Made by a program: the position numbers and the translations under genes. A stretch of 39,472 nucleotides of DNA from an uncultured Phycisphaerales bacterium (lineage in GTDB: Bacteria > Planctomycetota > Phycisphaerae > UBA1845 > Fen-1342), in assembly GCA_903914415.1 (NCBI GenBank), contig CAIWOY010000424.1, positions 1-39,472 of the forward strand, given 5' to 3'. The notes under the pieces are model-generated. The model was not told the DNA's origin and did not search any database. It saw only the letters and a program-made list of their open reading frames with translations. Position 1 is the stretch's first letter. Each line of letters begins with the position of its first letter. Positions 8,005 to 16,298 of this stretch are shown here, in pieces.

Positions 8005-8823
8005 ATGCTGCGACTTGGCGTCGTTTCATTCCTGAACGCGCGGCCGCTGATTGACGGCCTTGACGCGAACAGCGGGGTCCAATGTGTCCTCGACGTGCCC
8101 TCGGCACTCCCGGCGGGCCTGGAGCGCGGCGACTTCGACGCTGCGCTGATCCCGATCGTGGACGTGCTGCGCTCCGCCGGACGCTTCCGCGTCGTGTCGG
8201 ACGCCTGCATCGGGTGCGACGGTGAGACGATGACCGTGCGCGTTTTCGCACGCGTTCCACCGGACCGCATATACACGTTGTGGGTGGACGCGGACTCGCA
8301 TACGTCCGTGGCGCTGGCCGTGGTGCTCTGGCGGGAGCTTTTCGGGCGGCAGCTTACGTTGCGTCCGCTGGACGCGCGGACCGAAGACGTGGACGAGGCG
8401 GAGGCGGTGCTGCTCATCGGGGACAAGGTCGTGGACCCGGGCCGGGAGAGCTTCGGCTACGAGGTTGACCTCGGCGGCGCGTGGCGCGAGCACACTGGGC
8501 TGCCGTTCGTGTTCGCGGTCTGGGCGCGCCGCGCCCAGGAGTGCTCCGACGGGCAGCTCGGCGAATTGCTGTCGGCTGCGCGGGACCGTGGGGTGGCGCG
8601 GGCGGCCGAGATCGCCGCGACGGACGGCCCCGCGCTCGGGTGGCCGGTGGAGGCGGCCCGGCATTACCTCACGCATTGCCTCAGGCACAAGCTCGACGGG
8701 CGGGCCATCGAGGGGGCCGATCTGTTCGCACGGCTCTGCGCCGCCGGCGGGTTGGTCCCGCGCGGCGCGGAAATCGCGTGGCCGGAGGCGCTGCGGGCGC
8801 TGGGTGCGAGTGCCGCCCCATGA
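8005..8823 (+). CDS. mqnA: Chorismate dehydratase MqnA, futalosine menaquinone pathway
   Basis: A 272-residue cytoplasmic enzyme that dehydrates chorismate to 3-enolpyruvyl-benzoate, the first step of the futalosine route to menaquinone. The N-terminus (LGVVSFLNARPLIDGL) is the family hallmark, and the periplasmic-binding-protein-like fold is evident from the GDFDAALIPI and LLIGDKVVDPG segments. Length is normal. The start is the first ATG; no strong SD is seen. Its stop overlaps the next start (ATGA at 8820-8823), so it is translationally coupled to mqnC. The remaining pathway genes mqnB and mqnD are not in the window. Confidence 0.92.
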   Translation: MLRLGVVSFLNARPLIDGLDANSGVQCVLDVPSALPAGLERGDFDAALIPIVDVLRSAGRFRVVSDACIGCDGETMTVRVFARVPPDRIYTLWVDADSHTSVALAVVLWRELFGRQLTLRPLDARTEDVDEAEAVLLIGDKVVDPGRESFGYEVDLGGAWREHTGLPFVFAVWARRAQECSDGQLGELLSAARDRGVARAAEIAATDGPALGWPVEAARHYLTHCLRHKLDGRAIEGADLFARLCAAGGLVPRGAEIAWPEALRALGASAAP

Positions 8824-10094
8824 CGGCTGTCGCTGCGCCGCGGACGGGCTTTTCCCGCTTGAGCGACGCCGACGCGCTCGATGTTTACGCCACGCTTTCG
8901 ATTCACGAGCTGGGCCGCCGGGCGCTGGCTCGCACGCAGCAGTTGCACCCCGAGCCGTATCGCACGTACGTCGTGGACCGCAACATCAACTACGCGAACG
9001 TGTGCACGGCCGCGTGCACGTTCTGCAATTTCGCCCGCGTCCCCGGCCACAAGGAAGCGTACGTCCTCGCGTACGAGCAGATCGGGCGGAAGATCGAGGA
9101 GCTGCTGGCGATCGGCGGGACGCAAATCCTGATGCAGGGCGGGCTCGTGCCCGACGCCAGCCACCGCAGCGGGCAGGGCCTGCCGTTTGCGTGGTATCTC
9201 GATCTGCTGCGCTTCATCAAGCGGAACTACCCGGCCGTCCACGTGCACGCCTTCAGCCCGCCGGAGATCTGGGCGTTCCACCGGGTCTTTCGGATGCCGC
9301 TGCGCGACGTGCTCGAGCGGCTGCGCGCGGCGGGGCTGGACACGATTCCCGGCGGCGGGGGCGAGATCCTGGTCGAGCGCGTGCGGCGGGAGATCGGCCG
9401 GGGCAAGGCCGGCACCGAGGAGTGGCTGGCCGTCATGCGGAGCGCGCACCAGATCGGGATGAAAACCAGTTGCACGATGATGTTCGGGCACATCGAGACG
9501 ATCCCGGAGCGCATCGAGCACCTGCGCCGCCTGCGCGATCTGCAGGACGAGACCGGCGGCTTCACGGCGTTCATCCACTGGCCGTTCCAGCCGGAAGGCA
9601 CGCGGCTGGCACGGCAGAAGCGGCTTGTGCTGGAACGCGAACGGCGGGAGGGCGAAACATGGGAGGGCCAGACACGGGAGGGCGAAACGCGGGAGGGCGA
9701 AGCTCCTGCTGAGCCGCTGCGATCGGCAGGCGTATGCCCGGCTCAGCAGGAGCTTCGCCCTCCCAGTGTGCCGGACGGCCGGCACCTCGCCCTGGCCGAC
9801 GCGCACGAGTACTTGAAGCTGCTCGCCGTTGCGCGGCTGTACCTGGATAACATTCCGAACATTCAGTCAAGCTGGGTCACGATGGGGCCGAAGATTGGGC
9901 AGCTCGCGCTGTTCTTCGGGGCCAACGACATGGGCTCGGTGATGATGGAGGAAAACGTCGTCTCGTCCGCGGGCACGACCCACCGGCTGTCCGAGGCGGA
10001 GATTCGGCGGCTCATCGCCGACGCCGGCTGGACGCCGCGGCAACGCGACCAGCACTACCGGCCGATACCTCACGCCAAGACGCAACGTCGCTAA
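8820..10094 (+). CDS. mqnC: Cyclic dehypoxanthine futalosine synthase MqnC with repeat-derived insertion
   Basis: A 424-residue radical SAM enzyme that cyclises dehypoxanthinylfutalosine. The cluster-binding motif is C62-x3-C66-x2-C69 followed by NFAR. GGTQILMQGG (99-108), HAFSPPEI (143-150), GGGGEIL and the C-terminal DNIPNIQSSWVTMG, GANDMGSVMMEENVVSSAGTTHR match the family. Residues about 265-325 are extra: a 5-residue repeat (REGET, WEGQT, REGET, REGEA) and a palindromic DNA element, inserted in frame after FQPEGTRLA and before the conserved EYLKLLAVARLYLDN helix. Without this the length would be close to normal (about 365-370). The last residues (HAKTQRR) also come from a common intergenic repeat. 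All catalytic motifs are intact, so the enzyme is probably active. Confidence 0.92.
   Translation: MTAVAAPRTGFSRLSDADALDVYATLSIHELGRRALARTQQLHPEPYRTYVVDRNINYANVCTAACTFCNFARVPGHKEAYVLAYEQIGRKIEELLAIGGTQILMQGGLVPDASHRSGQGLPFAWYLDLLRFIKRNYPAVHVHAFSPPEIWAFHRVFRMPLRDVLERLRAAGLDTIPGGGGEILVERVRREIGRGKAGTEEWLAVMRSAHQIGMKTSCTMMFGHIETIPERIEHLRRLRDLQDETGGFTAFIHWPFQPEGTRLARQKRLVLERERREGETWEGQTREGETREGEAPAEPLRSAGVCPAQQELRPPSVPDGRHLALADAHEYLKLLAVARLYLDNIPNIQSSWVTMGPKIGQLALFFGANDMGSVMMEENVVSSAGTTHRLSEAEIRRLIADAGWTPRQRDQHYRPIPHAKTQRR
9646..9705 (+). repeat. 15-bp tandem repeat, four copies, inside mqnC
   Basis: Four consecutive 15-nt units starting GGGAGGG at 9646, 9661, 9676 and 9691, each close to GGGAGGGCGAAACGC. 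The unit length is a multiple of three, so it encodes a 5-residue repeat without breaking the frame. The fourth unit is also the start of the left arm of the palindrome at 9691-9764, suggesting local amplification of the arm end. Confidence 0.9.
9691..9764. repeat. Palindromic element inserted in frame in mqnC
   Basis: Perfect 25-bp inverted arms at 9691-9715 and 9740-9764 with a 24-nt loop. The arm begins GGGAGGGCGAAGCTCC and ends GCTGAGCC. The encoded EGEAPAEP string is one I recognise as a frequent product of a repeat family in planctomycete genomes. No transposase is nearby. Confidence 0.9.
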
Positions 10095-10142
10095 GAAGAG
10101 GGGCTAGTGTAGTAGCTCAGAAATAACCGCACGTTACGGACC

Positions 10143-10206
10143 GGGGAGCATGGGCCTCCGGCCCGTGCGAATCGCTGTGGAAACGGGCCAGAGGCCCATG
10201 CTCCCC
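10143..10206. repeat. Intergenic palindromic element
   Basis: Arms of 24 nt at 10143-10166 (GGGGAGCATGGGCCTCCGGC...) and 10183-10206 match with one difference that would be a G-U pair in RNA; the loop is 16 nt. The wider gap 10095-10330 between mqnC and the phosphatase holds no gene. Its two edges carry inverted CGCCAAGACGC-type repeat sequence (10072-10094, and 10297-10318). Confidence 0.85.
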
Positions 10207-10330
10207 AGGCGATTACGTTCACGTCTTTGTGAGCCAGTACACTAGCAGCCGAACCGCGCCGGCAGGCGCCGAAGGATGTGCGCCGTTTTTCCACCTTGGC
10301 GTCTTTGCGCCTCTGCGCGAGAAACTCGGG

Positions 10331-15296: not shown

Positions 15297-16298
15297 ATGA
15301 AGCTGCTCGTCGGCGTCGGCGTGGCGTGCGTGCTGATGCTGGGCGTGGTGGTCTGGCAGGTCTGGGGATTATGGTCGTCGCACGCAGCCACGCCCGGCAA
15401 TGTCGCGGCCGACCCCCGTGTCGGCCGTGGGCTGTCGGACGGTCTTCCACGGCCGGCAGGGGGGTCGGCCGCTACAGATGCCGTTCCGGCTGCTCCAGAG
15501 GCCGGGCAGGCGTTCGCCGACGCGAGTGTCCACTGGCCGGAGGACCCCAAGCAGGCCGATGCTTTGCGGCGCCTGGACGCGGCACGGGCCGCGCTGCGCG
15601 ACGATCCGGACCACGAGCGGGCGCTACGCGACGAGTTGGCCGCGCTGGCCGAGCTGAACCGCTGGCCGGAGGCGGCGCAGACGCTGGCGCGGCTCCGACG
15701 CCTGCGGCCCGACGACCTCGACGTGGATTTCGACTACGCGGCGGTCCTGTTGCGTCTGCACCGCTCCGTCGAGGCCATCACGCTGCTGAACGAGGTGGTG
15801 GCCCGGCAGCCGGAGCACGCGCGGGCGTGGTTCAACTTGGCGGTGGCCCATCAGTCGCTCGGGCATCTGGCGGAGGCCCGCCGCGCGTGGGACCAAGCGA
15901 TCACGCTCAAACCCACGCTGCCGGCGTACGCGCAGCGCGGCACCGTGCTCCTCGACCTGCACGAGTGGGAGGCGGCGGCAACCGACTTCGAGACCGTGCT
16001 GAAACAGCAGCCCGACGCGGCGGACGCCACGCTCAACCTATCGCGCGCGTTGTGGAAAAGTGGGCGTAGCGACCAAGCGCGAGAGCGTCTCCGCGCGCTT
16101 CTGGAGCGCCACCCGGAACACATACCGGCCCTGAACCGCCTCGCGGAGATGGCCTGGGACGCTTATCAGGCCTCGCCGGCCGGCAACGCCGCGCTGCGCG
16201 ACGAGGCTCTCGACTGCTGGCGCCGCTCGCTGCGTGCCGACGCCACGCAGTCCGAGATACAGGCGCGCCTCGCCGAAGCGCAGGCTCCCTCCCCGTAA
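15297..16298 (+). CDS. Membrane-anchored TPR protein with repeat-derived linker
   Basis: A 333-residue protein with an N-terminal membrane anchor (about 4-24) and at least five tetratricopeptide-like helical repeats (about 75-325; WFNLAVAHQSLGHLAEARRA is the clearest). Residues about 37-58 between the anchor and the TPR array are encoded by a palindromic DNA element inserted in frame. It starts 15 nt after the permease stop, in the same operon, and so is a good candidate for a partner or adaptor of the transporter on the outer face of the membrane. The TPR fold is clear; the partner is inferred from position only. Confidence 0.85.
   Translation: MKLLVGVGVACVLMLGVVVWQVWGLWSSHAATPGNVAADPRVGRGLSDGLPRPAGGSAATDAVPAAPEAGQAFADASVHWPEDPKQADALRRLDAARAALRDDPDHERALRDELAALAELNRWPEAAQTLARLRRLRPDDLDVDFDYAAVLLRLHRSVEAITLLNEVVARQPEHARAWFNLAVAHQSLGHLAEARRAWDQAITLKPTLPAYAQRGTVLLDLHEWEAAATDFETVLKQQPDAADATLNLSRALWKSGRSDQARERLRALLERHPEHIPALNRLAEMAWDAYQASPAGNAALRDEALDCWRRSLRADATQSEIQARLAEAQAPSP
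15406..15471. repeat. Palindromic element inserted in frame in the TPR gene
   Basis: 25-nt arms at 15406-15430 and 15447-15471 that are complementary at 23 of 25 positions, with a 16-nt loop. The outer arm reads CGGCCGACCCCC and the inner part CGGCCGTGG. Architecture is like the elements at 9691-9764 and 10143-10206, but the sequence is different. It falls in the linker between membrane anchor and TPR array. Confidence 0.85.

Follow-up and report, generated by a model that had tools for sequence, protein, structure and literature searches.

The gene at this locus, mqnC (positions 8820..10094, + strand), encodes a cyclic dehypoxanthinyl futalosine synthase of 424 aa, an enzyme of the menaquinone (vitamin K) pathway, and runs uninterrupted from an ATG at 8820 to a TAA at 10094 of the window, which is the whole 39,472-nt stretch of DNA that was analyzed. 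An HMM search supported the identity of MqnC (TIGR03699, 452.5 bits against a cut-off of 428.1), and the stop codon of an upstream open reading frame (8005-8823) overlaps the mqnC start codon. Between the FQPEGT and HEYL motifs, the protein has a variable linker (9603..9809, + strand) that was delimited using orthologue linker lengths and AlphaFold pLDDT values. Within this linker lies a repeat-derived insertion of 120 nt (9645..9764, + strand) that reads REGETWEGQTREGETREGEAPAEPLRSAGVCPAQQELRPP. Codon arithmetic places the block in frame at exactly codons 276-315 (40 codons), and an alignment with 29 relatives shows that the catalytic core is intact despite the insert. The original prediction, made from the letters alone, was thus right that both the frame and the catalytic motifs are kept. 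Just 3' of mqnC is a palindromic MITE-like element (window 10103-10246) with 64-nt arms that are 78% complementary and 16 nt apart, the core of which (GGGGAGCATGGGCCTCCGGCCCG) recurs at two other loci examined (L045 and L049).

The block is composed of a tandem array that runs into an inverted repeat. In the array, a 15-bp unit, CGGGAGGGCGAAACA, is repeated 3.8 times (9645..9701, + strand; tandem-repeat search and repeat family D1), and each copy resembles the 5' head of the repeat unit that follows and reads as REGET-type pentapeptides. The left repeat unit, GGGAGGGCGAAGCTCCTGCTGAGCCG (9691..9716, + strand), has a GGGAG tag followed by the hairpin GGC-GA-AGC-TCCT-GCT-GA-GCC and reads EGEAPAEP. 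It is separated by a 22-nt spacer (9717..9738, + strand) from a right unit (9739..9764, - strand) that is its perfect reverse complement and that reads AQQELRPP in mqnC. The inverted repeat was originally described as perfect, which it is, although its arms measure 26 bp, with 100% complementarity, and lie 22 nt apart, as against 25 bp and a 24-nt loop in that description; similarly, the 15-bp tandem units are real, but number 3.8 rather than four. Allowing up to three mismatches, a 24-nt arm occurred twice in the window and in none of 100 dinucleotide shuffles. The 74-nt palindrome folds as DNA with a z of about -10.5 versus shuffles, and the corresponding RNA hairpin has a predicted energy of about -66 kcal/mol (z about -10.7). 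Chance or slippage as the origin of the palindrome was excluded by the shuffles together with the dispersed copies described below. Elsewhere in the window, 15401-15476 holds two inverted copies of a different dispersed repeat, GGCCGACCCCCGTGTCGGCCG (13 matches in the own-genome sequence examined; reversed control, 0), and a 117-bp tandem repeat of 3.2 copies lies at the contig end (39091-39465).

A search of the organism's own genome recovered 94 arm matches on both strands, falling in 73 clusters, while the reversed-pattern control gave none. This bears out the proposal that the palindrome is a mobile-like element. A further 55 arm copies are present in a genome of the same genus (G001) and 444 in one from another genus of the family. 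At least one arm was found in 19 of the 61 genomes searched, counting the organism's own, and in a sample of the phylum the arm had a patchy distribution (12 of 392 genomes). The conserved unit derived from 291 arms in three genomes is 26 nt long, GGGAGGGCGARGCTCCNGCYGAGCCG. At one hairpin pair, 205 of these arms have GC and 73 have AT, with only 10 half-changed; at the neighboring pair, 272 have GC and 16 have CG. These covarying pairs are compensatory evidence for a hairpin, GGC-GA-RGC-TCCN-GCY-GA-GCC, preceded by a GGGAG tag that stays unpaired. The ViennaRNA fold of a single unit, .....(((..(((....)))..)))., corresponds to exactly this tag and hairpin.

In several respects, the family behaves as repetitive extragenic palindromes (REPs) do. 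Its 26-nt unit falls within the 20-40 nt of REPs and forms an imperfect hairpin, its copies are dispersed and grouped (single, tandem and inverted-pair forms), and they are mostly extragenic, in that only 17 of 66 classifiable clusters in the organism's own genome lie within one coding phase. The others have coding sequence on one side (27 clusters), on opposite strands, out of phase, or on neither side (12 clusters), and in a further genome, G007, nearly all arms are outside genes. Its tag sets it apart from the GTAG and CGTC superfamilies of REPs, the conserved 5' end of the 291 arms being GGGAG. The arm family has REP anatomy, and REPIN/BIME anatomy when paired. Because its units combine the 5' GGGAG tag with a covariation-supported hairpin, the mqnC copy is an inverted REP pair of the REPIN/BIME type. 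Given that the GTAG/CGTC tag is absent and that neither the arm sequence nor GEAPAEP was found in the literature searched, the repeat family is new, although of a kind already known. At eight loci (L052, L065, L070, L081, L083, L084, L090 and L099), the REP unit is embedded in a larger palindromic element that has TAGAGCGGATTCA and TGAATCCGCTCTA as its ends; the terminal inverted repeat of this element had 10 matches in the sequence examined.

The mqnC copy is not alone in being read in frame. Coding sequence was called with a heuristic codon model trained on the fetched stretches rather than from gene annotation. By this measure, 21 clusters in the organism's own genome are flanked on both sides by coding sequence on one strand, and 17 of them keep phase (16 open) where one third would be expected; the resulting p of about 1e-5 is indicative only, given the heuristic model and the counting of one sequence family many times. 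Of 17 non-redundant sense arms, 14 use the EGEAPAEP frame even though one other frame is free of stops as well; in antisense orientation, the usual readings are GSAGASPS or xQEPRPP. Hosts identified by HMM are ileS, dnaX, nuoC, proS, uvrA, leuS, an OPT transporter and a heptosyltransferase, together with secA, aspartate-semialdehyde dehydrogenase (ASD), VKOR-DsbA and, in G001, kdpA. The EGEAPAEP-type peptide thus occurs in more than 10 unrelated proteins, as was anticipated when the encoded string was said to resemble others in planctomycetes. Five insertions (in proS, leuS, uvrA, nuoC and the heptosyltransferase) occupy the same positions in the two species of the genus, and therefore copies can persist through speciation. 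In having 16 open, in-phase clusters in unrelated conserved proteins and a preferred reading frame, the family also resembles the Rickettsia palindromic elements (RPEs).

Among 61 distinct planctomycete MqnC linkers, the modal length is 22 aa and the range 9-91, as compared to 63 aa here. The flanks of the block are consequently not nearly adjacent in relatives, as had been supposed, and the gain is about 41 aa over the mode, close to the size of the 40-codon block, instead of the suggested 55 residues. An alignment of 29 relatives gives the linker frame PLGRWK..P....PDGxHLxLADAHEYL, and the MqnC studied here retains PDGRHLALADAHEYL 3' of the block. Linker extensions are frequent among homologues and differ in nearly every genus. 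With 30 orthologues, AlphaFold assigned residues 259-314 pLDDT values below 50 and 200 core residues values of at least 90. MqnE (6xi9), the nearest solved relative, has only a short connection at the matching place. The block lies in a hypervariable linker that is predicted to be disordered and is away from the radical-SAM core.

The orthologue in G001, with 94% nucleotide identity over the aligned mqnC, has a linker of only 9 aa that leads directly into LVLADAHEYL and is without the PDGxHL motif of nearly all relatives. Its joint, CTCGTCCTGG, maps between CTTGTGCTGG and CTCGCCCTGG of our mqnC, which are 10-bp matches. We considered G001 as an ancestral empty site and ruled this out, since a longer linker with PDGxHL is retained by almost every other relative; for the same reason, its short linker is best read as a probable deletion between CTTGTGCTGG and CTCGCCCTGG. 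No true empty site for the mqnC copy was found among the orthologues compared. Nor was a clean target-site duplication seen at this copy; its left and right flanks match at only 7 of 10 bp, at the place where the G001 deletion was joined.

The linker DNA of four other genera also contains inverted repeats that clearly exceed dinucleotide shuffles, with arms of 35 bp (5 mismatches) in G021, 32 bp (4) in G002, 34 bp (6) in G008 and 16 bp (0) in G017. None is the same as the arm in our mqnC, and three are made of different 7-bp units. The G021 palindrome is dispersed, with 45 matches in its own genome and 2 in the genome of the window (G000), as judged with a 60-nt query whose 3' end was partly back-translated from protein and which matched its own locus at 98%. 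For the G002 palindrome, the dispersal signal was weak. Long hairpins of 7-bp units (GCGAATA, GATTGGA and GAGAAGT types) were observed in the linkers of L133, L115 and L119, where they give 7-residue protein repeats in the MqnC of other genera. Far from the same insertion appearing in all distant homologues without palindromic DNA, which was to count against the original prediction, extensions differ in sequence and five of the linkers examined are palindromic with unrelated sequences.

In REPIN/BIME systems, the repeats are mobilized by REP-associated tyrosine transposases (RAYTs). RAYT-like genes are present in the organism's own genome, and none of the RAYT loci fetched from 16 genomes was flanked on both sides by this arm. 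One-sided proximity was seen only in G425, at about 165 bp and 630 bp, and two family searches with flank inspection did not find a cognate transposase for the arm family. RAYTs nested within host enzymes were also observed, published descriptions of which were not found in the literature searched. The organism's own IleRS (L044/L294; G000:C18:23188-23805, minus strand) contains an in-frame RAYT domain (NF047646, 78.8 bits; cut-off 80) that is flanked by a different inverted REP, GGTGGGGTGGGC.../...GCCCACCCCACC. A RAYT occurs at the same IleRS site, just before KMSKR, in G011 (L159/L295, G011:C23; 89.4 bits), a second genus, and the two RAYT parts are 57% identical versus 79-91% for the IleRS flanks. 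In-frame RAYTs also occur at a second IleRS site, before SLLVWTTTPWTL, in G009 (L296) and G017 (L298) and, by reading of the sequence, in G018 (L300). By HMM, RAYTs are nested in PurH of G009, G013, G017 and G025 (L301, L302, L321 and L322), as well as in an AAA ATPase/RarA-like protein of G003 (L304). Reading of the sequences suggests that PurH of our genome (L323, G000:C228) and of G014 may carry one too, and L303 likewise. The RAYTs nested in PurH and the RarA-like protein are bordered on either side by peptide strings of REP-like type. In the nested copies that were read, HxH and Y..N motifs can be recognized, and the HxH and Tyr motifs look intact in the two IleRS copies just before KMSKR.

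We propose, with a probability of about 0.8, that the block is an inverted REP pair of a dispersed family with an expansion of its 15-bp head, tolerated in the flexible linker of MqnC. A RAYT-type HUH transposase, working in trans on the hairpin in its single-stranded form, would have mobilized the pair, which inserted into the flexible, variable linker, and the 15-bp units would have arisen by slippage on the 5' head of the REP unit. The block may have survived there because it contains no stop codon, has a length (120 bp) divisible by three and is hydrophilic in this frame, and because it would form a disordered loop at a distance from the radical-SAM core. The pattern of persistence would then be set by purifying selection against other frames and sites, and not by gain of function. 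Family membership, hairpin covariation, the in-frame state, recurrence in other genes and linker variability are supported directly. Transposition of the mqnC copy itself is a candidate event, and translation of the insert as a protein segment is predicted.

Tolerance fits better than the exaptation that was originally suggested, in which the EGEAPAEP-rich peptide would be useful to MqnC in regulation, localization or interaction and be kept by positive or purifying selection. The five in-frame copies shared by both species would accord with such a role, but neutral inserts are also expected to be retained over one speciation. Nothing supports a function of the peptide; the linker is predicted to be disordered and varies in nearly every genus, that of the same-genus orthologue is only 9 residues long, and the same peptide occurs in more than 10 unrelated proteins, so that we regard exaptation as very unlikely. 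We also think it quite unlikely that the nucleic acid is what matters, with the hairpin modulating how the mqnA-mqnC mRNA is translated or degraded and the peptide being a by-product. The RNA fold is very stable, and REPs elsewhere have been proposed as post-transcriptional elements (PMC3733652). However, the hairpin is situated two thirds into the open reading frame, its position and sequence are not conserved in relatives, and the other palindromes in the same linker fit passive tolerance equally.

A preference of the repeat machinery for coding loops or for the mqnC site, with essential genes as a favored niche, would account for five different palindromes in one linker and for RAYT genes nested in frame in IleRS, PurH and RarA, with IleRS being entered at one site in our genome and G011 and at a second in others. 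Yet the majority of arms lie between genes, at their ends or in sequence without an assignment, and the same pattern is expected if copies simply survive in permissive loops; targeted insertion is therefore improbable in our estimation. An artefact of assembly or binning, in which a chimeric join placed the repeat in mqnC, was weighed because the assembly is MAG-like (464 contigs) and repeats are prone to misassembly. It is scarcely credible when the frame is kept, the ancestral VPDGRHLALADAHEYL motif follows downstream, identity to G001 is sustained across the aligned mqnC, and in-frame copies occupy the same sites in two independent assemblies. Beyond the mqnC copy, we tentatively raise a broader scenario, plausible but short of an even chance, of an in-gene life style of the REP/RAYT machinery in this family of Phycisphaerae. 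Palindromes would repeatedly colonize permissive loops of essential enzymes, as in the MqnC linker of five genera, and transposases would reside in frame inside IleRS, PurH and RarA in an intein-like but unspliced manner, so that the element is both expressed and protected by its host gene.

Returning to tolerance of an inverted REP pair, its closest parallels are several known repeat systems. RPEs (Ogata 2000/2002, as cited in PMC10969869, PMC2229807 and PMC3733652) lie in frame in many unrelated conserved proteins and are also intergenic, and activity was retained in a rickettsial guanylate kinase that carries an RPE (PMC2229807). The family described here shares both locations. Compared by description, RPEs are about 105-150 bp and come from an alphaproteobacterium, whereas these are 26-nt units (single, inverted or tandem) from Planctomycetota. 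Intragenic REPs with GTAG/CGTC tags encode 20-82 aa where they lie in open reading frames, among them uvrA, tRNA synthetases and DNA repair genes, and recB of two Xanthomonas species has different REPs at about the same site (PMC3733652). Our family likewise has short hairpin units with a tag, forms clusters and inverted dimers, and has occasional copies in open reading frames, with uvrA and tRNA synthetases as hosts, but its tag is GGGAG and its arm is absent from the text of that study. The Xanthomonas recB case is a precedent for different palindromes at one MqnC linker. With REPINs and BIMEs, the family has in common the inverted pair, the short spacer, the many copies and the solitary units; the difference is that no RAYT flanked by the unit was seen in the loci from 16 genomes. 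MITEs are similarly non-autonomous, palindromic and dispersed, and some copies of the unit do lie inside the longer element ending in TAGAGCGGATTCA, whereas such terminal repeats are missing from the mqnC copy, whose arms are inverted but which has no clear target duplication.

The case combines a broad housekeeping host range of the family with the convergent colonization of one enzyme loop. Strings derived from repeats, such as EGEAPAEP and GSAGASPS, are carried by planctomycete proteins and are to be treated with caution, as they are not conserved domains. Selfish protein-coding palindromes of the kind known from Rickettsia occur in planctomycetes as well, through a different repeat family, and one enzyme loop with unrelated palindromes in several genera offers a naturally replicated test of whether such inserts are tolerated or used.
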